Part shown: positions 11,670-22,670 of the stretch, one piece after another
How the letters are laid out: each line of letters starts with the position of its first letter
Numbering within the stretch: the first letter of the stretch is position 1
From: Treponema sp.
GTDB taxonomy: Bacteria; Spirochaetota; Spirochaetia; Treponematales; Treponemataceae
DNA: 33,488 nt
Reading direction: 5' to 3'
Assembly: GCA_016282455.1 (NCBI GenBank)
Contig: JAEEKM010000075.1
Span: 1-33,488 of the forward strand
The notes under the pieces: generated by a model
Seen by the model: only the letters and a program-made list of their open reading frames with translations
The model's database searches: none
Told to the model about the DNA's origin: nothing
Made by a program: the position numbers and the translations under genes

Positions 11670-13802
11670 TTGCTTTCCCTGAATCATGTTTCCTATAGTT
11701 TTCCCCAGTCTCATGAAAATGCTTTAGAGGATATTTCCTTTTCGGTTAAAGCAGGGGAGTATATTGCCCTTGTGGGAACAAACGGTTCTGGAAAAACAAC
11801 CCTGTCCCGTCTTCTTGCGGGTTTTATTAAGCCTGACTCCGGTAGTCTCTGCATGGACGCTGACGTTCTTCCCGGAATTGTTTTTCAGCAGCCCAAGGAA
11901 CAGATTGTAGCAGGAGTTGTGGAAAGGGATACTGCCTTTGGACCGCAAAACCTTTCTCTTCCAAAATCAGAAATTGAACTCCGCACCATTGAATGTCTTT
12001 CGGTAGTGGGCATGGCAGACAGGGCTTCTTCCAGAACTTTTGAACTTTCTCTGGGACAGACGCAGCGCCTTGCCTTTAGCGGAATACTCGCTCTTTTTCC
12101 AGACCTTCTTATTCTTGACGAAGTAACTGCAATGCTTGACCCCAGGGCACGCAAAGAACTGGTGGAATTTATTGACCAGTGGAATACAAGGGGCCACACA
12201 ATAATTCACGTTACTCATGATGAAGATGAAGTGCTTCGGGCGCATAGAGTTCTTGTAATGGACATGGGAAAACTTGTCTTTGACGGAAGCAGCAGAGACT
12301 TTAAAAAAGATACGGGTTTGTTTGAAAATGTTTTTCCTTCACTGGAGATTGCAAAAAATAAAAATCAGGAAACTGAAAATAATGAAACAGTAAAAGAAAC
12401 TGCCCTTTGTGCAGAAGGACTTTCTTTTTCTTACCCTGACCGGGAAATTTTTTCTGACTTGAATTTTACTCTTGAAAAAGGAAGTCTTGTTGCCCTTACA
12501 GGACCGAGTGGCTGTGGAAAATCTACTTTACTGGAATGTCTTGCGGGGCTCCATGATGACATGAAAGGAAATGTTTTTTCAAAAACACGACCCGTACTTT
12601 CGCTTCAGGAAAGTGATGCTGCCCTGTTTGCTTCCTGTGCCGCAGATGACGTTGCCTTTGGGCCGGAAAACCAGGGACTAAAGGGAAAGGCATTACTCTC
12701 CCGTGTAAAAGAGAGCATGAAACTTGTGCAGCTTCCATTTAACGATTTTGCTGACAGAAATACATTCGGTCTCTCTGGCGGAGAAAAAAGAAAACTTTCT
12801 CTTGCAGGAATAATTGCCCTGGAAAGTGATGTCTATCTTTTTGATGAACCTACCTCTGCACTGGATGCCGCTTCCAGAAATGCAGTTTTGTCCACTCTCC
12901 GTTCCCTTGCAGATTCTGGAAAAACGGTTTTCTTCAGTACCCACCGCATGGAAGAAGCAGAAATTGCAGACAGGGAAATTAAATGGGAGTCTTTAATTCA
13001 CCACGAAAATACCAGTGAAGAAATTGCTGAGCAGTCTGAGAAAAAAAGTGAAGAATTAAAAGAACAAAAGCCTTTTGAAAATGCCGCTATGATCCGTAAA
13101 CTTGCAGCAGTGTCTGCTTCCTTAATGGCACCTGCAAAAGTTCCTGCTAGTCCTGTGAGTATTCTGCCCCCTCTTGCAAAGTGGCTGCTTTTTCTTGCCA
13201 TTGCCATTGCATCTTCTGTGGTTCAGGAAATCTGGCTCTGCGGACTAATGTTTGCCGTGAGTGTGCTTTATGTTCTTCTTGCCCGCTATCCCCTTAAAAA
13301 ACCCCTCTATGCCCTTTGGAAACTGCTGCCCTGGATTTTAGTTTTTGCCCTTCTGGGAATAGTTCTTCTGCCGCTTTCTGAAGGCGACCGCATTTTATGG
13401 AGCTGGAAAATATTTGCCCTTACGGACACAAAAATATTTCTTCTTGCCCGTGCATTTCTTCGTGCCGCTTCACTTATTTTTTCCATGGGAACTTTTCTTT
13501 TTACAACGGGGGAACGTGAAATTATGGACGGCATTTCCATGCTGCTTTATCCCCTTTCCCTTGTAAAAATTCCCGTGCGCTATGCCGTGCTTGTAGTTGG
13601 AATCATCTTCAGGTTCCTGCCCCTGCTCCTTGACGAAATGTGCGGCATTGTAAAAACACAAATGGTCCGCGGTTCTTTTGGAAAGGCAAAGGGACTTTCA
13701 AAAATAAAAAAACTCCTGCCGCTTTTTGTACCTCTCATGCTGCAAACCTTCCGCAAGGCAGAACAGCTGTCTGACGCATTAACGGCCAGGTATTTTAAGT
13801 GA
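11670..13802 (+). CDS. ECF-type transporter: two ATPase domains fused to an EcfT-like membrane domain (A-A-T)
   Basis: Two Walker A motifs (GTNGSGKTT, GPSGCGKST), two signature motifs (LSLGQTQRL, LSGGEKRKL), two Walker B regions (LLILDEVTAML, VYLFDEPTSAL), then a multi-TM CbiQ/EcfT-like region ending RFLPLLLDEMCGIVKTQMVRGSF...LSDALTARYFK. Confidence 0.88.
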   Translation: MLSLNHVSYSFPQSHENALEDISFSVKAGEYIALVGTNGSGKTTLSRLLAGFIKPDSGSLCMDADVLPGIVFQQPKEQIVAGVVERDTAFGPQNLSLPKSEIELRTIECLSVVGMADRASSRTFELSLGQTQRLAFSGILALFPDLLILDEVTAMLDPRARKELVEFIDQWNTRGHTIIHVTHDEDEVLRAHRVLVMDMGKLVFDGSSRDFKKDTGLFENVFPSLEIAKNKNQETENNETVKETALCAEGLSFSYPDREIFSDLNFTLEKGSLVALTGPSGCGKSTLLECLAGLHDDMKGNVFSKTRPVLSLQESDAALFASCAADDVAFGPENQGLKGKALLSRVKESMKLVQLPFNDFADRNTFGLSGGEKRKLSLAGIIALESDVYLFDEPTSALDAASRNAVLSTLRSLADSGKTVFFSTHRMEEAEIADREIKWESLIHHENTSEEIAEQSEKKSEELKEQKPFENAAMIRKLAAVSASLMAPAKVPASPVSILPPLAKWLLFLAIAIASSVVQEIWLCGLMFAVSVLYVLLARYPLKKPLYALWKLLPWILVFALLGIVLLPLSEGDRILWSWKIFALTDTKIFLLARAFLRAASLIFSMGTFLFTTGEREIMDGISMLLYPLSLVKIPVRYAVLVVGIIFRFLPLLLDEMCGIVKTQMVRGSFGKAKGLSKIKKLLPLFVPLMLQTFRKAEQLSDALTARYFK

Positions 13803-13869
13803 GAAGCTTTCTTCTCCGAAAAATTATTCAAATTTCTTCATTTTCTTGTATAAATATCCATGAAATTTA

Positions 13870-13898
13870 TTTACAAAGAGAATAAAATTTTCTATAAT
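13870..13898 (+). promoter_or_regulatory. gdhA promoter
   Basis: TTTACA (13870-13875), N17, TATAAT (13893-13898), about 40 nt upstream of the ATG at 13940. Confidence 0.65.
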
Positions 13899-13939
13899 TC
13901 CTTAGTTACTGTTGAAAGATACAGAACTAGGGGTTAATT

Positions 13940-15295
13940 ATGGATTTCAAAATTACCAATGACTATTGCAAGCGCGTATGGGATGATGTAAGCCAGCGCT
14001 ATGCAGACCAGGGGCACTTCCTGCAGGCTGTAGGTCTTGTGCTTGAGACAATTTCTCCCGTAGTGGCCAAGATGCCTGAGCTGGAGAAGTATGCAGTTCT
14101 GGAGCGTCTCGTTGAGCCAGAGCGTGTGATTATGTTCCGTGTACCTTGGACAGACGACAAGGGTAAGCCACATGTAAACCGTGGTTTCCGCGTTCAGTTC
14201 AACAGTGCAATCGGCCCCTACAAAGGTGGTCTTCGCTTTAGCCCCGAGGTAGGTCTTGATGTTCTCAAGTTCCTGGGCTTTGAGCAGATTCTTAAGAACA
14301 GTCTTACAACACTCCCCATGGGTGGCGGTAAGGGGGGGTCTGATTTTGACCCACACGGAAAGAGTGATGCAGAAGTTATGCGTTTCTGCCAGAGCTTTAT
14401 GACAGAGCTCCAGAGACACATTGGTGCTGATACAGATGTTCCTGCCGGTGACAAGGGTGTTGGTGGACGCGAAGTTGCCTGGATGTTCGGTCAGTACAAG
14501 AGACTCCGCAACGAGTACACTGGTGTTCTTACCGGTAAAGGTCTTGAGTTCGGTGGTTCACTTGTACGCCCTGAGGCTACAGGTTATGGTCTTATCTACT
14601 TTGCTGACTGCATGATGAAGCAGGTAGGAGACACTCTCGAAGGAAAGACTGCTATTGTTTCTGGTGACGGAAACGTTGCTCAGTTTGCTACAGAAAAGCT
14701 TATTCAGCTTGGTGCAAAAGTTCTTACTCTTTCTGACTCAACAGGATACATCTACGACGAAGAAGGAATTGACCAGAAGAAACTTGAGTACGTTAAGAAG
14801 TTCCGCGCAAAGAAGGAAAAGATTGACGCTTACGTTAAGAAATATCCAAAGGCAAAGTTCTACAAGGGACAGAAGCCATGGGGTGTTAAGGCTGACCTGG
14901 CATTCCCCTGCGCAACTCAGGATGAAATCTATCTTGAAGATGCAAAGAAACTTGTTGAAAACAAAGTAAAGCTTGTTGCCGAAGGTGCTAACATGCCAAC
15001 TCGTGCAGAGGCTATTGAATTCCTCCAGAAGAAGGGTGTAAAGTTCGCTCCTGGAAAGGCTTCAAATGCCGGTGGTGTTGCAGTTAGTGGTCTTGAAATG
15101 AGCCAGAACTCAGAGCGCCTCTCATGGAGCTTTGAGGAAGTAGATGCAAAACTCAAGGACATCATGACCAACATCCACAAGAATGCATGGGACACTGCAA
15201 AGAAGTATGCCACAGAAGGTGACTACGTAGCCGGTGCCAACATCGCAGGCTTCGTTAAGGTAGCCAAAGCAATGGTTGCTCAGGGCTTGGTATAA
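13940..15295 (+). CDS. gdhA: NADP-type glutamate dehydrogenase
   Basis: FRVQFNSAIGPYKGGLRFSPEVGLDVLKFLGFEQILKNSLTTLPMGGGKGGSDFDPHGKSDAEVMRFCQSFMTEL is characteristic of hexameric GdhA. Confidence 0.97.
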   Translation: MDFKITNDYCKRVWDDVSQRYADQGHFLQAVGLVLETISPVVAKMPELEKYAVLERLVEPERVIMFRVPWTDDKGKPHVNRGFRVQFNSAIGPYKGGLRFSPEVGLDVLKFLGFEQILKNSLTTLPMGGGKGGSDFDPHGKSDAEVMRFCQSFMTELQRHIGADTDVPAGDKGVGGREVAWMFGQYKRLRNEYTGVLTGKGLEFGGSLVRPEATGYGLIYFADCMMKQVGDTLEGKTAIVSGDGNVAQFATEKLIQLGAKVLTLSDSTGYIYDEEGIDQKKLEYVKKFRAKKEKIDAYVKKYPKAKFYKGQKPWGVKADLAFPCATQDEIYLEDAKKLVENKVKLVAEGANMPTRAEAIEFLQKKGVKFAPGKASNAGGVAVSGLEMSQNSERLSWSFEEVDAKLKDIMTNIHKNAWDTAKKYATEGDYVAGANIAGFVKVAKAMVAQGLV

Positions 15296-15422
15296 TTGTT
15301 AGACCAGGTAACCGCGAGAATTCGCAACAGCGGATTCTCGTTAAGCAAGCGCAGCTTGCGACTTGCTCAGGGATTGGTGTAATAGTTAACTAAAACAACT
15401 GCGAGAATACGCGACAGCGGAT
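15276..15422 (+). repeat. Two 60-nt imperfect direct repeats (15276-15335 and 15363-15422), period 87 nt; the first contains the gdhA 3' end
   Basis: Ungapped alignment by eye gives about 47/60 identical. Both copies encode A-Q-G-L-V-stop (GCTCAGGGCTTGGTATAA and GCTCAGGGATTGGTGTAA). Confidence 0.85.
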
Positions 15423-15452
15423 GACCTCTTTTGAGGTTGTCCGCTTTTTTTT
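15416..15452 (+). terminator. Intrinsic terminator downstream of gdhA
   Basis: AGCGGATGACCTC (15416-15428), loop TTTT, GAGGTTGTCCGCT (15433-15445), followed by a run of Ts. Confidence 0.85.
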
Positions 15453-16821
15453 ACATTTCTTCTACTTCAAGCATTCCGGGAACAGAGAAGTCCTGTATTT
15501 CTCCGCTGCGGGCAAAGTCAGCCCAGATTTTGCGCATTGGGATTCCCCTGCTGTAAATTTCACCGGAGGTAAGTTTCATTGCAGCCGGCCAGCCCTCTGC
15601 TTTACCTGCGCCGAAGAGTGGAAGAATGTCCAGTGTGTGAGCGGCCCCTACAAAAGATTTATTTTCTGTCCAGGTAAATTTGTAGTGATAGGTTTTTCCG
15701 CCATAAGAGGCATAATTTTCTGCAAACTTTTTAGATGGATTGATGAATATTTTACTGCTGATTTTTTTGATGATAAGTTCAACAATCCATCTTGTTAAAA
15801 AGAAAGAGTCCATTGCAACAAGCAGTTTGTTTTCGCCGATGTAGGCTGCAACTTCGCGGGTGGCAGAACCAATCATTATGTCGTGGGTTGCGGCAATTTC
15901 TTTAAGCCTGCTTTCAATCTGGGTTTCCGGTGGTAAGGGGTCAAGACCAAAGTGAGGGGCAAATATCAGGTACTTTGCATCCCCTTTTTCTGTTACATGA
16001 CTTACGATTGATTTTTGTGCTTCAAGAATTTCTTCTCTTCCTGCATCAAGGGGAAGAAGATTAAGTTCATCGAGCATTTTCTTTTCCATGTTCTGCCGGT
16101 TAACATAAGTACCTATGGGTGTACTCTGAAGGATTGCCCGCCTGTAAAGGTTTTCTGTACCGTAAGAAAGCATTACGCACCTTACTGCATCTGCTCCTGC
16201 CGACTGACCGAAAATCGTAACGTTTTCTTTGTCACCACCAAAGGCTTCTATATTTTCATTCACCCACTTTAAAGCAAGGATGATGTCCTTTAAACCAAGG
16301 TTTGCGAAATTTCCGTCAGCATCTTTCACAAAACCAAGAACTCCCAGCCTGTAATTTATTCCCACCAGAATAATGTTCTGTTCCTTTACAAGAGGTTCCC
16401 TGTCGTAGCTGGGGGCATCACAGCCACCGTTTCTGTAAGCACCGCCATGAATCCACACCATTACAGGAAGACGTGAGTTCTTGTCTGCATCCTTGGGCAT
16501 TGTGATGGAAAGATACTGGCAGTTTTCTTCCTGGGGAAAATCTTCGTAGCGGGTTCCCATCATAAAACCTTCTGCTGCAGAAGGAAGCTGGAATGCAAAA
16601 GGTGAATCCGCAGTACATTCATGAATCCCGGGAGAATAAACAAAAGGTTCAGCTTCTCCATAGCGGGTACTTGTTGCATAACGGATTCCTTTAACGTGAG
16701 AACAGCTTTCTGTTTCATAGCCTGAAAAAGTTCCTGCCTGGCATTCCCACTGTGTTTTTGCATAACTGGCAGTAGCCAGAAAAATGAAGAGTATAGAAAA
16801 AAAGATCCTGTTTGTTTTCAT
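15451..16821 (-). CDS. Secreted type-B carboxylesterase
   Basis: MKTNRIFFSILFIFLATASYA signal peptide; PVMVWIHGGAYRNGG oxyanion region; NVTIFGQSAGADAVR nucleophile elbow. Start corrected from 17070 to the ATG at 16821 (AAGGAAAAGCGCATG). Confidence 0.92.
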   Translation of the reverse strand: MKTNRIFFSILFIFLATASYAKTQWECQAGTFSGYETESCSHVKGIRYATSTRYGEAEPFVYSPGIHECTADSPFAFQLPSAAEGFMMGTRYEDFPQEENCQYLSITMPKDADKNSRLPVMVWIHGGAYRNGGCDAPSYDREPLVKEQNIILVGINYRLGVLGFVKDADGNFANLGLKDIILALKWVNENIEAFGGDKENVTIFGQSAGADAVRCVMLSYGTENLYRRAILQSTPIGTYVNRQNMEKKMLDELNLLPLDAGREEILEAQKSIVSHVTEKGDAKYLIFAPHFGLDPLPPETQIESRLKEIAATHDIMIGSATREVAAYIGENKLLVAMDSFFLTRWIVELIIKKISSKIFINPSKKFAENYASYGGKTYHYKFTWTENKSFVGAAHTLDILPLFGAGKAEGWPAAMKLTSGEIYSRGIPMRKIWADFARSGEIQDFSVPGMLEVEEM

Positions 16822-16839
16822 GCGCTTTTCCTTTTTTAA

Positions 16840-16868
16840 ACTATACTTCAGTTTTTCAGGCTTTACAA
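16840..16868 (-). promoter_or_regulatory. Candidate separate promoter for the carboxylesterase
   Basis: Minus strand TTGTAA (16868-16863), N17, TATAGT (16845-16840), in the gap after the upstream AAA+ gene. Confidence 0.5.
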
Positions 16869-16870
16869 GT

Positions 16871-18280
16871 TTATTTACCGCTAAAAAAATCCACTTCTGG
16901 TATTTTCCAGGGGTCTTTGGAAATTGCAGGACTGCCGCGGAATTTTTTCCAGCCAAGGTAAAGTTCACGGGGAGAGAAGAGGGCAATCTGCTCGTTTGTT
17001 TCGGGGTCTGTGGTAAGGGTTTCGTTACAGACTTTGACGATGGAATCTTCAATGCTGCGCGGGTTGTCATTGCTGTAAAGAAGAATTCTGTTGCGGATTT
17101 CTTCTGAAAGAACTGCCGGTAAAAATTCTCTTAACATGCCGCTGCTTTCAAGCCAGTTTTCGTAAAAGTTATCAAGCACAAAATCCCTGAGCTGTTCGTG
17201 AGTGTAATCTTTTATTTCAAAAATTTTAAGCCGGTTCAGAATTGGAGCGGGAATGCCGTCCAGCTTGTTTGCAGTGAAGATGTAATTTATTCCCGAAGCA
17301 TCCACATTTATTCCAAGGTAGTTGTTAAAGAAACGCCTGGAATTGCTTTTTTCCAGGATGGAATAGAAGATTGTTTCAATGCTGTGATTCTGGTCACCTT
17401 TTATTTTATCCAGTTCGTCAAAGAGAATGATGGGATTTTTAGTGGGTCTTCCGTCACTGTCTGCAAACATTGATTCTACAATGAGTCCGTGACTGGAACT
17501 TTTATAAGCAGGATCAGACCCGGAGAGGGTAAAGTTTGCAACATCATTTCCAAGGTCAATTTTGACTGGTGGTTTTCCCATAAGGATCATGCATAAGTCT
17601 CTGGCAAAAGAACTTTTTCCGCAGCCTGGGCCGCCTAAAAGTACAAAGGGTTTAAAACTTAAAGCTCCGTTTTTCTTAAGTCTGGAAGCATTTGCATTTT
17701 GCAGCATATAGTCAATTACGTCCTTCATGTTGGGATACTTTTTTTCAAGGTCCTTAATTTTTTGAAGTGTATCTTCGTCAATGCAGATGTATTTGGGCTT
17801 ACCATTAAGTTTATTATAAACACTATCCAGTTTAGATGTGTCCGCATTATCAAGGGCAAGCAGGTGGTCATCGTAATTTTCTGCTTCAATGATGGAATCA
17901 TTTTCTTCTCCGAACCAGCCGGGAATTTTTTCTTTGGCAAAATAAGAAACACTATGAGTTTCATTTACAGGACAGAGTATAGGCATCCTGTGCACTCTTT
18001 CTGCAAAAAAATATTTTTCACAATTCTTGCAGTGCATGATAAAGACTGGCTTTTCTGTCTTATCTGAAGAGAGGAAAGTCAAAGTTCCGTCAGGAAAAAT
18101 GAGAATAACTTTTTGTCCCTGCCTTAAATAGTCTGCTTTGTAGCAGGACTTATCTTCCAGAATGATAAGCTTTTGATCTTTTAGTTCAAAAGTTTCACTG
18201 TCCTCATGATAGACTGAAGAAATTTTTAGTGCATCTAAAACTTCAGACATTCTTCTTAGGGTGTTGCTTGGGTACTGCAT
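16871..18280 (-). CDS. Lon-like AAA+ ATPase without a Lon protease domain, with an N-terminal Cys motif
   Basis: Walker A GGPGCGKSS, Walker B PIILFDELDKI, Lon-like stretch NYLGINVDASGINYIFTANKLDGIPAPILNRLKIFEIKDYTHEQ. N-terminal HCKNCEKYFF...ILCPV resembles an incomplete zinc ribbon. Only about 60 residues follow the lid region. SD GGAGG upstream. Confidence 0.8.
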   Translation of the reverse strand: MQYPSNTLRRMSEVLDALKISSVYHEDSETFELKDQKLIILEDKSCYKADYLRQGQKVILIFPDGTLTFLSSDKTEKPVFIMHCKNCEKYFFAERVHRMPILCPVNETHSVSYFAKEKIPGWFGEENDSIIEAENYDDHLLALDNADTSKLDSVYNKLNGKPKYICIDEDTLQKIKDLEKKYPNMKDVIDYMLQNANASRLKKNGALSFKPFVLLGGPGCGKSSFARDLCMILMGKPPVKIDLGNDVANFTLSGSDPAYKSSSHGLIVESMFADSDGRPTKNPIILFDELDKIKGDQNHSIETIFYSILEKSNSRRFFNNYLGINVDASGINYIFTANKLDGIPAPILNRLKIFEIKDYTHEQLRDFVLDNFYENWLESSGMLREFLPAVLSEEIRNRILLYSNDNPRSIEDSIVKVCNETLTTDPETNEQIALFSPRELYLGWKKFRGSPAISKDPWKIPEVDFFSGK

Positions 18281-18300
18281 TTTCTAACCTCCGTATTTAT

Positions 18301-20445
18301 TTAGAAACCTATCTTGTGGTTTTCCCAGCTGCGTGTTTTTCCATGAACTATTTTGCATAGTTCTTCCGTTACATAGGCGGCATTTACCTTTTCTTTTTTC
18401 ATGAACTTTATCCTTCCGCTCAGGGCACCAAAGTCTCCGGGAGTAACATCTCCTGACTGGTAAATTTTTTCTACCTGATTTGGACTGATTTTTAAGTCCT
18501 TAAAGTAACTTTTACAAAGCAGGTTTACTCCGTCTTTTGTTAAAGGCTTAAAGTCCACTTTTAAGTTGAACCTTCTGTCTGTTGCTTTGTCCAGGCTTTC
18601 TGCAAGGTTTGTGTTGCAGAAGAGAATGCCCTTGAACTGATCCATTTGTAAAAGAAACTCATTTACCTTTAAGTCGTTGTGCCTGTTAAGGCTGTCTCCG
18701 CGGCTGTGAATAAAAGAATCTGCTTCATCAATGAGAAGGATTGCTTTTTTTTCTGCAGCGTTGTCAAAGGCAGCCTTTATGTTCTGTTCTGTTTCGCCTA
18801 CATAGGGGCTAATTATTTCTGAGGCACGGATTATGATAAGGGGTCTGCCCATACGCATAGCAATATTTTCTACATAAGCGGTTTTACCTGTTCCGGAAAG
18901 ACCAGAGAGGAGAATGTGTATTCCCGTAAATTGATCGGATTCTTCTTTCATGGAATCGTTTGCTGCCTGGAGCATTTCTGTGAGTTCCTGGACTGAATAA
19001 GAGGTATTAAGGGCTTCAAGACAATAACTGGGATTGTTTCTTATGTTGTCCGCATGGGGAGAATATTTTTTGTTCAGAAGTTTTGACCTTTCTTCTGCAT
19101 TAAGAAACTCTGTGTGTTTTAGAACATTAGTAAACTCTTCCCATTTATCCGGCTCAAGTTTTAGTTCTTCCATTTTATCTACGGCAACAGCAATTAAATC
19201 TGGAGAGAGCTGCTGTTCAAAAAAATATTCGGCAAGTTCTGTTTTGTCTTTTCTGTGTCTGGGAAGTTTTAGGTTTGTCCAGTAAAGAAGATCTACTCCA
19301 TGTTTTTCAAGTGCATGTTTTTTATCTTTCTCAAAATTACCTGAAGAAATAATGACGGGTACTTTTACGGCTTTAAGGACATTGGAAGAATTTTTCTGTA
19401 TTCTTTCTTCGCATAAGAGATAGTTATCTGCAAGATTTTTTGGAAGAAAGAAAATGCCATTACTGTTCTGGAGTGTAACCGAATAGGCATAAAGATAAAA
19501 TGAAAACTCGGTTAAATCTGCATGAGGGAACTCCTGCCGGATTTCATAGAGGCTTTGAAGTGAATCTTCACAAAGACTGGCAATAAAATTTTTGTTGCGG
19601 AAATCACTTTCGCTTTTGATGAGCATGAAGCAGCCTTTTTTATCTTCTTTGTATTCATGAACCTGCTCAAACATGATGTAAAAGTTTTCTTTGTTTAACT
19701 CCGACATATCTTCATAACTGTACAAATCCTGATTGGGCTTAAAGACTACCGGCTTGACTGTAAAAGAAGGATTGTCCTTTATGAAAAAGGAATAAACAAA
19801 TTCTTCTACGGTCCAGGCGTCAGAAAAGAGGTTGAGGTTTATTAACTCGTTGTTCAGTTTTCTTGTGTAGGAAACTTTAGACTGACTTTTGATATTGCAG
19901 ATGGAACAAAAAAGTTTTGCCTTGTATTCATCAGAATAGGAAGAGGGAAAAAGCCAGCCCCAGTCTCTGTTCAGAAGAGCAAGAATGAGAAGTTTTTTAC
20001 AATCTTCGGAAAGTCCCAGTCCCTTGCAAAAAGACTGAAAGAAAACATTGTTGAATACTTTTTCCAGAGGGGAAAGTTCTTTTTCTTCCGCCCTTTTTTT
20101 TTCTTCGACTATAAATAAAATTATACTGTATTTTTCTGAGTCTGATTTTAAATCGCTGCAAAAACTTTTAAAGACCTCTTCGGGATCAAAGTTGTTTTTT
20201 TGTAATCTCTGAAATTTTTCATTTTCCTTTTTCTCAAGAAAGTTCAGATAAACATTCAAGACTTTTGTAATATCTGAGTTTGTGAGAACAAGCTGGAGAA
20301 ACTCAGGATCACTTTCATGGTCAGAAAGACTGATGAGAGAAAAATTGTGTAAAAAGATCTGACCGGAGATTTCTTTGCTGTTAACATCAAGAACAGTATT
20401 TTTTAAAAGCTCGTTTTCTAAAAAGAAATTCTTTTCTTTTTCCAT
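18301..20445 (-). CDS. Classic-type AAA ATPase (COG0464-like) with long N-terminal region
   Basis: Walker A SGLSGTGKTAYVENIAMRMGRPLIIIRASEIISPYVGETEQNIKAAF, Walker B AILLIDEADSF, sensor CNTN, RRF arginine region. SD GAGGTG before the ATG at 20445. Confidence 0.85.
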   Translation of the reverse strand: MEKEKNFFLENELLKNTVLDVNSKEISGQIFLHNFSLISLSDHESDPEFLQLVLTNSDITKVLNVYLNFLEKKENEKFQRLQKNNFDPEEVFKSFCSDLKSDSEKYSIILFIVEEKKRAEEKELSPLEKVFNNVFFQSFCKGLGLSEDCKKLLILALLNRDWGWLFPSSYSDEYKAKLFCSICNIKSQSKVSYTRKLNNELINLNLFSDAWTVEEFVYSFFIKDNPSFTVKPVVFKPNQDLYSYEDMSELNKENFYIMFEQVHEYKEDKKGCFMLIKSESDFRNKNFIASLCEDSLQSLYEIRQEFPHADLTEFSFYLYAYSVTLQNSNGIFFLPKNLADNYLLCEERIQKNSSNVLKAVKVPVIISSGNFEKDKKHALEKHGVDLLYWTNLKLPRHRKDKTELAEYFFEQQLSPDLIAVAVDKMEELKLEPDKWEEFTNVLKHTEFLNAEERSKLLNKKYSPHADNIRNNPSYCLEALNTSYSVQELTEMLQAANDSMKEESDQFTGIHILLSGLSGTGKTAYVENIAMRMGRPLIIIRASEIISPYVGETEQNIKAAFDNAAEKKAILLIDEADSFIHSRGDSLNRHNDLKVNEFLLQMDQFKGILFCNTNLAESLDKATDRRFNLKVDFKPLTKDGVNLLCKSYFKDLKISPNQVEKIYQSGDVTPGDFGALSGRIKFMKKEKVNAAYVTEELCKIVHGKTRSWENHKIGF

Positions 20446-20515
20446 TCTTTCACCTCAACTAAAATGATTTTCTTTCTCATCATTCTAAGTGCGGTGAAGG
20501 AAAATGTAATTAAAT

Positions 20516-22264
20516 TTATAATTTATTATTTTCTGAAATACTCAGAAGTTCTTTTTTTGCATTTTCAATTTCTTTTTTGTATTGTCTGCTTAAGCGCTGA
20601 AGATTTTTATATCTTCGTTCAATTTCTTTTTGTTCTGCAAAGGGTTTGCCTGGTATAGTCATTTTTTCAAGATTCTCTTTTGAGATTGCAGGAAGTTTTG
20701 CTCCGCTTGTCAGGGAATGTAAATACTTCTGTCCGCTTGTAGATTCAAGATAGAGCTTAAGATAACAGGGGTTGAAAATCTGTTTGTATTGGTCTCTGAT
20801 TCTTATGACAAAAAGATTTGAGGCAGGAATTACAGCCAGGGAAGAGTCTTCGAATAGTGCAACTTTAAAAGCAGGATAAGAAGTTTTTGTGATTAGGACG
20901 TCTCCTGGCTTAAGGAGGTATTTATTCCAGCTGTTTTTTATGTCAGAAAGACGGGTCATATTTTCGTATTCAATTTCTCCGTCCTGAATGTCTGAAACAC
21001 TCATGTAACGGTAGGGAGTGTTACCGCTGGTTTCTGCTTCCCTTATGCCGGCTGTGTCCTGAAGCCCGCGGAATATTTCTGCATGATTCTTCAGTTCCTC
21101 AAAAGGTTTTGTGTAGTTTTCCAGGAACTCAATCGGATCAAAGGGTTTTGTTGTTTCAAACACAAAGTTTTTTGCTTCCAGATCTTTACAGGTTACTTCG
21201 TTTCTTTCTACGCCGTATCTGTCGCTGTGCTTTAAGCCCAGAAAATGATTTATAATATCTTCATCGTCTTTAAAAACTTCTGTAAGGGATTTTTCTTTTA
21301 AGGGAATCATTACACTGGAAAGGTCTAGAAAGATTATTTTATCTTCCGTGTTGTTTTTGTCAAAGATGAGCAGGGTTGAAACAAGATTTTTCGGGTAAAC
21401 TTCTCCTGCAGGAAACCTTATGAGTCCTTTAAAAAATCCGCACTGGCAGATTGTTTTTCTGAGTTCTGTGTTTTTTTCTGAATAGAGAATGTCAGAAATG
21501 CAGATTATTGCACGGCCATTTTTGTCTAAGTGGTTAAGAACATTTGTCAGGCAGGAAAGAGATTCATCCTGAGAGTCAATGTAATTTTTTACCATTCGGT
21601 TTGGGGTCTGGGAAAAAGAATTTTTGAAGAGGGGAATGAAGGAATATATTTTGTTAAAAAGTCTTTTTTCATTTTTTATTCCATCTTCTTTTATGCAGAT
21701 TTCTATCTGTTTGTTTTCCGGGAAAATTATGTCATTGTATAAAAGTAAAAAATCTCGGACTTCTTTAGAAGAAGTGTAAGAGACGGGTTTTGTGTTAAAG
21801 GTAAAATTTATTTCCGGATTGTTCATCAGTTCTGAAAGGAAACTTTCCGGTGCTCCATAAAAATCTGCAAGACGGTCACTTTCTGAGAGGTCCAAAAGTT
21901 TTGAAACCAGGCGGCACATGCCGGGGGTGGAATACATTTCTTCGTGCTGCTGCAGGGTACTCAGCCTGAAGGATTTAAAATAACTGTGAATGCGCTTTTC
22001 GCTGTAACGTTCAAAATCTTCTGCGGAAAAATCTTCGGGAAGGGTTTGAAGGTTTGCTCTTAAGATGTCTTTTATTTCCTGAGTAACCCTAAGTTCTTCT
22101 ATGAGAAGGGAGAGGTCAGGATTTGCTTTTATATTCTGTTCTAAGGTTTTGTATAAAATGTAGATAAGGCAGTAGGAGGGCATCTTCGTTTTTGTAAATA
22201 CATTTCCCCTGCGGTTTTCTTCCAGTTCATCAATCATATTGGTCTCTGAAATAATATAATACAA
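20516..22264 (-). CDS. HsdM-like (N-6 DNA methylase fold) protein fused to one HsdS-type TRD; catalytic motifs degenerate
   Basis: HsdM-like landmarks: EMYSTPGMCRLVSKLLDL, LNHLDKNGRAIICISDILYSEKNTELRKTICQCGFFKGLIRFPAGEVYPKNLVSTLLIFDK. HsdS-like TRD: YRYMSVSDIQDG...LLKPGDVLITKTSYPAFKVALFEDSSLAVIPASNLFVIRI...SGAKLPAISKENLEKMTIPGKPFAEQKEI. Start is TTG at 22264 or ATG at 22237. Confidence 0.8.
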   Translation of the reverse strand: MYYIISETNMIDELEENRRGNVFTKTKMPSYCLIYILYKTLEQNIKANPDLSLLIEELRVTQEIKDILRANLQTLPEDFSAEDFERYSEKRIHSYFKSFRLSTLQQHEEMYSTPGMCRLVSKLLDLSESDRLADFYGAPESFLSELMNNPEINFTFNTKPVSYTSSKEVRDFLLLYNDIIFPENKQIEICIKEDGIKNEKRLFNKIYSFIPLFKNSFSQTPNRMVKNYIDSQDESLSCLTNVLNHLDKNGRAIICISDILYSEKNTELRKTICQCGFFKGLIRFPAGEVYPKNLVSTLLIFDKNNTEDKIIFLDLSSVMIPLKEKSLTEVFKDDEDIINHFLGLKHSDRYGVERNEVTCKDLEAKNFVFETTKPFDPIEFLENYTKPFEELKNHAEIFRGLQDTAGIREAETSGNTPYRYMSVSDIQDGEIEYENMTRLSDIKNSWNKYLLKPGDVLITKTSYPAFKVALFEDSSLAVIPASNLFVIRIRDQYKQIFNPCYLKLYLESTSGQKYLHSLTSGAKLPAISKENLEKMTIPGKPFAEQKEIERRYKNLQRLSRQYKKEIENAKKELLSISENNKL

Positions 22265-22288
22265 AAACGAAGAATACTCTATATGGCC

Positions 22289-22567
22289 TTAGTACTTCTG
22301 TGGAATAAAGCAGGTTTGTACCAGGTCGTTCAAATCGCATTTAAAGATGGTTTTGATTTTTACCAGATTTTTAAGACTTGGGCTGCTTTTTCCTTCCATC
22401 CAGTTGTAGATTGCCTGCTGACAGGTAAAACCCAAAAGCTCCGACAGCTGGTTGAGTGTCATGTTGTTTTCAATGCACATGTCTCTGATTTTTCTTCCTG
22501 TAGCCGCATTGTTAACTGAAATTTCATCAATTTCCTGACGAATTGCCATAAATTCCCTGTTTCCCAT
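22289..22567 (-). CDS. XRE-family helix-turn-helix regulator
   Basis: GRKIRDMCIENNMTLNQLSELLGFTCQQAIYNWMEGKSSPSLKNLVKIKTIFKCDLNDLV is a Cro/CI-type HTH. AGGAGG upstream of the ATG at 22567. Confidence 0.9.
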   Translation of the reverse strand: MGNREFMAIRQEIDEISVNNAATGRKIRDMCIENNMTLNQLSELLGFTCQQAIYNWMEGKSSPSLKNLVKIKTIFKCDLNDLVQTCFIPQKY

Positions 22568-22586
22568 CTTTCTACCTCCTAAATGT

Positions 22587-22670
22587 TTTGAATATGCATA
22601 TCTGCTATAAATATAATATAGCAGGAGGCTTATGTTTTGTCAAGAAAAAAGTTGTATATGCATATTCAAA
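22587..22670 (-). promoter_or_regulatory. Operon promoter flanked by paired inverted operator-like sites
   Basis: Minus strand TTGACA (22643-22638), N17, TATATT (22620-22615). TTTGAATATGCATAT (22587-22601) and its exact reverse complement ATATGCATATTCAAA (22656-22670) flank it. Confidence 0.8.

Follow-up and report, generated by a model that had tools for sequence, protein, structure and literature searches.

The window analysed here, a stretch of 33,488 nucleotides (nt) from Treponema sp. (assembly GCA_016282455.1, contig JAEEKM010000075.1, positions 1 to 33,488), carries on its minus strand a set of four genes that matches no named system that we tested. The genes encode an XRE/Cro-type regulator (XRE), a fusion of an HsdM-like methylase core to a target recognition domain (TRD), hereafter HsdMS, a tandem-AAA ATPase (AAA) and a Lon-like AAA+ motor that ends before the protease domain (LonL). 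The AAA-LonL pair is the conserved core of the set and HsdMS is optional; the methylase motifs are replaced throughout the relatives compared, and the protein evolves under purifying selection. We tentatively favor a reading in which the genes form an XRE-regulated accessory module of Treponema, with a pseudo-methylase that would mark a site on DNA to which two AAA+ threading motors are directed in conflict with phages or plasmids.

A conserved AAA-LonL pair and an optional methylase-like gene

An initial annotation, made from the letters of this DNA, had described an operon of four minus-strand genes with gaps of 24, 70 and 20 nt and without a nuclease, helicase, PglZ, HsdR or full HsdS gene. 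The coordinates of the called open reading frames agree with those gaps, and none of the listed functions is encoded within the four-gene set (Table 1; gene labels rest on Pfam/NCBIfam profile matches). HsdMS more likely starts at ATG 22237 (573 aa) than at TTG 22264 because its relatives begin MISELxxxRRGN at that point, and with this start the gap between XRE and HsdMS becomes 51 nt.

Scanning 84,980 species genomes yielded 13 strong LonL loci, each from a record of Treponema or Spirochaetaceae. At E below 1e-150, LonL orthologues are present in 16 of 200 congeneric genomes and also in one genome of a sister genus, and XRE-type HsdMS is present in 9 of the 200, 8 of which are LonL-positive (hypergeometric 2e-9, a value that ignores kinship, with three of the nine HsdMS genomes being relatives 83–88% identical). 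No close relative was found among 72,556 plasmids or 50,697 phage records, and a viral origin was rejected, with one weak LonL relative in viral contigs.

Where a locus has enough flanking sequence, AAA almost always lies immediately upstream of LonL, the exceptions being genome G107, where LonL stands alone, and G480 and G493, where the two are separated. All four genes recur in at least five genomes and in two gene orders, in tandem in the window and with XRE-HsdMS divergent from AAA-LonL in G045, G531, G464 and G524. A divergent arrangement broken across contigs is seen in G103; in Treponema sp. JC4, XRE-HsdMS lies at one contig end and AAA-LonL at the start of another, and in G493, XRE-HsdMS lies 2 kb from AAA with LonL on a separate contig. 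Pairs of AAA and LonL without adjacent HsdMS occur in two T. bryantii genomes and at loci L062, L064 and L065, while HsdMS without LonL beside it occurs in G019 and as a second copy in G464. Roughly half of the AAA-LonL pairs have no HsdMS next to them, so this protein cannot be indispensable to the core. The co-occurrence raised in the initial annotation is found in other species, but it is the AAA-LonL pair, and not all four genes, that forms the conserved core.

A methylase-like protein without catalytic motifs

The Pfam N6_Mtase match covers only residues 228–376 of HsdMS, from profile position 155 on. When HsdMS is aligned by profile with EcoR124 HsdM, motif I (DPAAGSG) faces a sequence without the glycine motif and NPPY faces FPPL-type residues; in the window protein, motif I DPAxGSG has become DFYGAP. 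In the 10 XRE-type HsdMS proteins that were compared, the sequence at motif I, the SAM motif, is (D/N/V)(F/I)Y(G/D)xx and that at motif IV is (A/S)(F/C)(I/P)P, with SFIP/AFPP-type residues in place of NPPY/F and (N/D)PP(Y/F) in none of the ten, in keeping with the inactive appearance first noted for the window protein. Because these replacements are themselves conserved and dN/dS between relative pairs is 0.24, 0.27 and 0.39, HsdMS appears to be a conserved pseudoenzyme, catalytically dead by motif, and the motif loss predicts that it methylates no DNA motif.

An AlphaFold model of HsdMS (pLDDT 76, pTM 0.59) retrieved with Foldseek the single-chain methyltransferase-TRD enzymes VvuYJ016 and CamA, at E ~1e-17 but with TM-scores of a modest ~0.4. 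Conservation is highest in the TRD, with 56% identity against 50% for the core between the window and G019, and 54% against 44% between the window and G493, which suggests that the target is fixed and does not change rapidly.

Treponema also contains a second, solitary HsdM-TRD family (MSYAKHFYVERAL...; G000:C350 (L054:34-1710), L108:8631-10292, L109:1849-3558, L110:7265-9025 and L111:7405-9165). Several of its members keep a motif I-like DxGxG, NPPY/F is absent, and none of the loci seen links the family to AAA or LonL.

Two AAA+ proteins, one with a dead first domain and one without a protease

Aligning AAA to congeneric paralogues with two live AAA domains (~730–820 aa) revealed that its first domain (D1, residues ~280–440) lacks Walker A and Walker B, while the second (D2) keeps all motifs, including Walker A/B, sensor and Arg residues. 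The AlphaFold model (pLDDT 85) matched Cdc48, p97, Rix7 and Drg1 in Foldseek over ~560 columns at E ~3e-13. What had been annotated as a classic AAA ATPase therefore does keep its catalytic residues, in D2, but is a tandem AAA of Cdc48/Rix7-like type with a dead first ATPase domain. It shares with Cdc48, p97 and Rix7 the two AAA domains in one chain, and differs from them in the loss of the D1 Walker motifs, in a helical and different N domain, and in belonging to a small bacterial gene set.

Almost every complete AAA homologue examined has [IVLM]GF in its last residues, those on plasmids in Proteobacteria and Desulfosarcina included; LonL orthologues do not have this tail. In the window it is encoded at 18301-18312 and falls in residues 710–714, which are of low confidence in the AlphaFold model. 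The tail resembles the IGF peptide, the docking element of ClpX on ClpP; it may serve to dock a partner or, equally, to pack subunits as the C-terminal FG of Vps4 and katanin does. The same tail is seen in a distant Lon-like family (G125, G478, G534 and G480). Tandem-AAA homologues with two live Walker A motifs occur on plasmids of Desulfosarcina, Rhodoferax and Novosphingobium (L091, L093 and L094), beside or near WYL regulators, and the Novosphingobium homologue also has PD-(D/E)XK and UvrD genes nearby.

LonL, as first annotated, is a Lon-like AAA+ ATPase, with a Lon AAA module that keeps its catalytic residues and no protease domain. TIGR00763 matches residues 175–379, the AAA region only, and the profile match to solved Lon chains is at 1.5e-24. 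The protein stops at residue 469, the match to Lon ending at position 518 of 795 or 555 of 784, and the Ser-Lys protease domain of Lon (endopeptidase La) is not present after the AAA module. Walker A/B, sensor and Arg residues are invariant in six of six orthologues, with an aromatic residue (Y/F/W) at the Lon pore-loop position. An N-terminal zinc ribbon is kept in the six orthologues (FmdB-type ribbon at E=0.002 in two members), and the window protein lacks the fourth ribbon cysteine. A distant protease-less Lon-like family (L050, L143, L144 and L145) divergently adjoins a gene of ~370 aa.

Predicted promoters and operators

XRE proteins 47–49% identical to that of the window directly precede the closest HsdMS relatives (JC4, G019 and G493). 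The predicted XRE promoter is bracketed by a perfect 15-bp inverted repeat (22656-22670 / 22587-22601). In JC4, whose XRE is 47% identical, similar sequence stands on either side of its own promoter with the half-sites in the other order, and the divergent loci L060 and L067 each contain two GGGAGA..TCTCCC-type palindromes in the intergenic region between XRE and AAA. Such a repeat could suggest an invertible XRE promoter, a possibility that we rejected: operators fit better, because the JC4 half-sites are reversed in order and separate palindromes are present in the two divergent loci. Upstream of the AAA start, the string TTTAATTACA is shared by the window, both T. bryantii genomes, L057 and L062, with TTTAATGACA as its counterpart in L067 and L060, and it is absent or diverged in L065, L142 and L171. 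All promoter and operator assignments are predictions from sequence matches.

Given the tandem order in the window and the divergent order in at least four other genomes, the four genes probably form two transcription units, XRE-HsdMS and AAA-LonL, the former contributing the optional HsdMS. The four-gene operon of the initial annotation is upheld in that the genes lie together, but AAA-LonL has a promoter-like element of its own.

Table 1. Positions of the four genes and of predicted regulatory elements in the window.
Feature	Position	Strand	Basis
XRE/Cro-type helix-turn-helix regulator, 92 aa	22289..22567	(-)	HTH_3 E=6e-8 (Pfam)
HsdM-TRD fusion (HsdMS), 582 aa if TTG start	20516..22264	(-)	N6_Mtase 2e-9, Methylase_S 2e-6
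Tandem-AAA ATPase (714 aa) with a helical N domain, a dead D1, a live D2 and a conserved C-terminal KIGF tail	18301..20445	(-)	AAA 3e-24
LonL, Lon-like AAA+ motor (469 aa) with an N-terminal zinc ribbon; AAA module of Lon complete, protease domain absent	16871..18280	(-)	TIGR00763 1e-21
Predicted sigma-70-like promoter TTGACA-17-TATATT, ahead of XRE-HsdMS	22615..22643	(-)	11/12 matches; regional promoter-like site total not above shuffles
Inverted-repeat arm 1 TTTGAATATGCATAT, ahead of the -35 box, predicted XRE operator	22656..22670	(-)	Similar sequence flanks corresponding promoter in JC4 (L114)
Inverted-repeat arm 2 ATATGCATATTCAAA, predicted XRE operator	22587..22601	(-)	Sequence repeat
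Promoter-like element ATTACA-17-TAGAAT ahead of AAA-LonL	20482..20510	(-)	Sequence match, string TTTAATTACA

Comparison with known systems

BREX systems contain BrxL, a Lon-related AAA+ ATPase without protease activity (PMC10164562), and an ATPase, BrxC, that is found in all BREX subtypes (PMC12839542). The set resembles BREX in combining a methyltransferase-type specificity protein with AAA+ ATPases, one of them Lon-related and protease-less. It differs in that PglX methylates whereas HsdMS lacks the catalytic motifs, and in that LonL fits Lon's own AAA module and lacks a C-terminal Lon-fold domain. Searches of Pfam, NCBIfam and PADLOC with the four proteins brought up no BrxL family at E<=1, and none of the four matched BrxC, for which no genome-wide search was made. 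PglZ (PF08665) was above the family cut-off in 0 of 15 carrier genomes, a control search being positive in 2 of 14 known genomes.

With Type I restriction-modification (RM) systems and the single-chain HsdM-S enzymes (CamA and the VvuYJ016 methyltransferase), HsdMS shares the methyltransferase-TRD fold and the alignment with EcoR124 HsdM. In contrast to these, its motifs I and IV are replaced and it is linked to two AAA+ proteins instead of HsdR, which is absent from the four-gene set and was not recognized among the best 25 families of the scanned neighbors. IetA is the closest PADLOC entry to D2 of AAA (2.7e-30), but the match covers the AAA domain only and reaches 83 bits against an equivalog cut-off of 510 bits; beside AAA stands LonL, and no subtilisin-like IetS was recognized among the best 25 of 67 neighbor families. 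The TRD of HsdMS resembles MAD5 of MADS (6e-20, PADLOC), but that similarity is confined to the TRD, the match to MAD8 is at 0.03, and the four genes include no further match to the MAD set.

Membership in BREX, Type I RM, IetAS or MADS was therefore rejected on the tested features, and literature searches found no description of this gene composition, in agreement with the initial annotation, which had recognized no named system. By analogy, the module would work like a specificity factor with AAA+ motors, following BREX or Type I logic without a nuclease or methylation.

Proposed function and alternatives

In the mechanism that we propose, the XRE protein would keep the module at a low level via its paired operators. 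HsdMS, of CamA/HsdM type, would bind a specific DNA site through its TRD without being able to methylate it, and so might act as a sequence-specific sensor or platform. Both motors, the Cdc48-like tandem AAA, whose first ring is dead, and the Lon AAA ring minus its protease, would be brought to the HsdMS-marked site, where they could thread, unfold or evict proteins, or move DNA, and an invading phage or plasmid would be kept from replicating or becoming established. Speaking for this proposal are the recurrence of the four genes in two orders, the association of XRE-type HsdMS with LonL, a conserved pseudo-active site at low dN/dS, the retained motor residues of D2 and LonL, the paired operator-like repeats, the T. 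bryantii copy beside defense genes and the WYL regulators near AAA homologues. If this is correct, the module would clearly exemplify a methylase of restriction type that has been retained purely to read DNA and works together with motors that thread proteins. It would then be relevant to the question of how phages are stopped by BREX-like systems poor in nucleases, and would represent a lineage-specific Treponema module whose parts are separately testable.

A defense role is plausible, and its clearest context is T. bryantii NK4A124 (L061), the sole relative in a clear defense island. There AAA, LonL and a WYL regulator adjoin a complete ZacABC (2e-281, 3e-125 and 2e-85) and PDC-S27 (7e-197), with a type IV/type I-like restriction fragment ~8 kb away (defense genes at L061:2999-4438 and 12744-21231). 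Several points weigh against our proposal. Most loci, including the window, lie outside clear defense islands, and few other defense families were listed among 81 neighbors of the loci, so that general defense enrichment is not shown; the nearness to known defense genes considered in the initial annotation holds for the one T. bryantii copy but not for the window. HsdMS is absent beside about half of the pairs, and its contact with the ATPases, and hence recruitment, is a proposal. DNA binding through the TRD is suggested by homology, and the conservation of this domain, unlike that of restriction specificity subunits, argues against fast-changing restriction-type specificity.

The strongest rival, which we regard as somewhat unlikely, is that AAA-LonL is a self-standing protein-remodeling machine, for example an unfoldase pair that may feed a cellular peptidase, to which XRE-HsdMS was later linked as an optional control or addiction module. 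The pairs lacking an adjacent HsdMS in T. bryantii and at L062, L064 and L065 fit this explanation, as do the fold matches to the Cdc48, p97 and Rix7 unfoldases and the ClpX-like tail of AAA, with the ambiguity of that tail noted above. However, an accessory, patchy spread (16 of 200 genomes) and the linkage to HsdMS would be unusual for housekeeping quality control, and no peptidase gene adjoins AAA-LonL. A peptidase also figures in the idea, to our minds unlikely, of an undescribed, nuclease-free immune or conflict system in which the dead methylase, as site sensor, would load a Cdc48-like pseudo-D1 ring and a protease-less Lon ring, possibly passing proteins to a cell peptidase via the IGF tail of AAA.

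HsdMS and XRE could instead be DNA-binding regulators controlling a toxic AAA-LonL effector, in the manner of a toxin-antitoxin or abortive infection system. XRE is first in its unit, the divergent units of L060 and L067 have palindromic predicted operators between them, and a dead methylase could be a repressor acting at a conserved site, which would suit the well-conserved TRD. Yet several genomes retain AAA-LonL in the absence of HsdMS, XRE would be a sufficient regulator by itself, and toxicity is unsupported by evidence; we regard this explanation as quite unlikely. We consider it improbable that the genes help to stabilize or partition an integrated element or plasmid: L065 and L066 have ParA-family genes close to LonL, an IS transposase-like gene (judged by eye) follows XRE-HsdMS in G019, and the flanks differ between the two T. 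bryantii genomes, but no integrase or replication gene is common to the loci and the plasmid and phage records held no close relative. That the set is what remains of a Type I or BREX-like restriction system in decay, as the lost methylase motifs and degenerate D1 might suggest, is very improbable because the motif loss is uniform across all relatives and dN/dS is 0.09–0.39, with reading frames intact, no HsdR or PglZ trace in the set and PF08665 below cut-off in all 15 carriers.

Genomic neighborhood

The host assembly is 74% complete in 369 contigs, and the closest named loci are those of T. bryantii, Treponema sp. JC4 and rumen or gut Treponema metagenome-assembled genomes. In the window, the set is flanked by metabolic genes for an amino-acid ABC transporter, a carboxylesterase and glutamate dehydrogenase. 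The transporter gene is present in 78 of 200 genomes, and since the esterase adjoins it in 0 of 29 loci examined, no clean empty insertion site could be demonstrated.

A WYL regulator lies directly downstream of AAA-LonL in T. bryantii and also beside more distant AAA homologues on plasmids. Metallophosphoesterase (calcineurin-like) genes are found near several loci (7 of 81 neighbors). The type A phosphoesterase is present in 16 of 200 genomes, six of them LonL-positive, and being physically linked in only three loci it was rejected as a regular part of the module. Phosphoesterases of several types lie at L113:127-951, L065:1678-2442 and 14071-14919, L142:11825-14657 and L067:2969-3937. Near LonL or the double-AAA paralogue, a ParA-like gene is found repeatedly together with two small partner genes (L065:8003-10156, L066:13019-15176 and L101:9866-12033).

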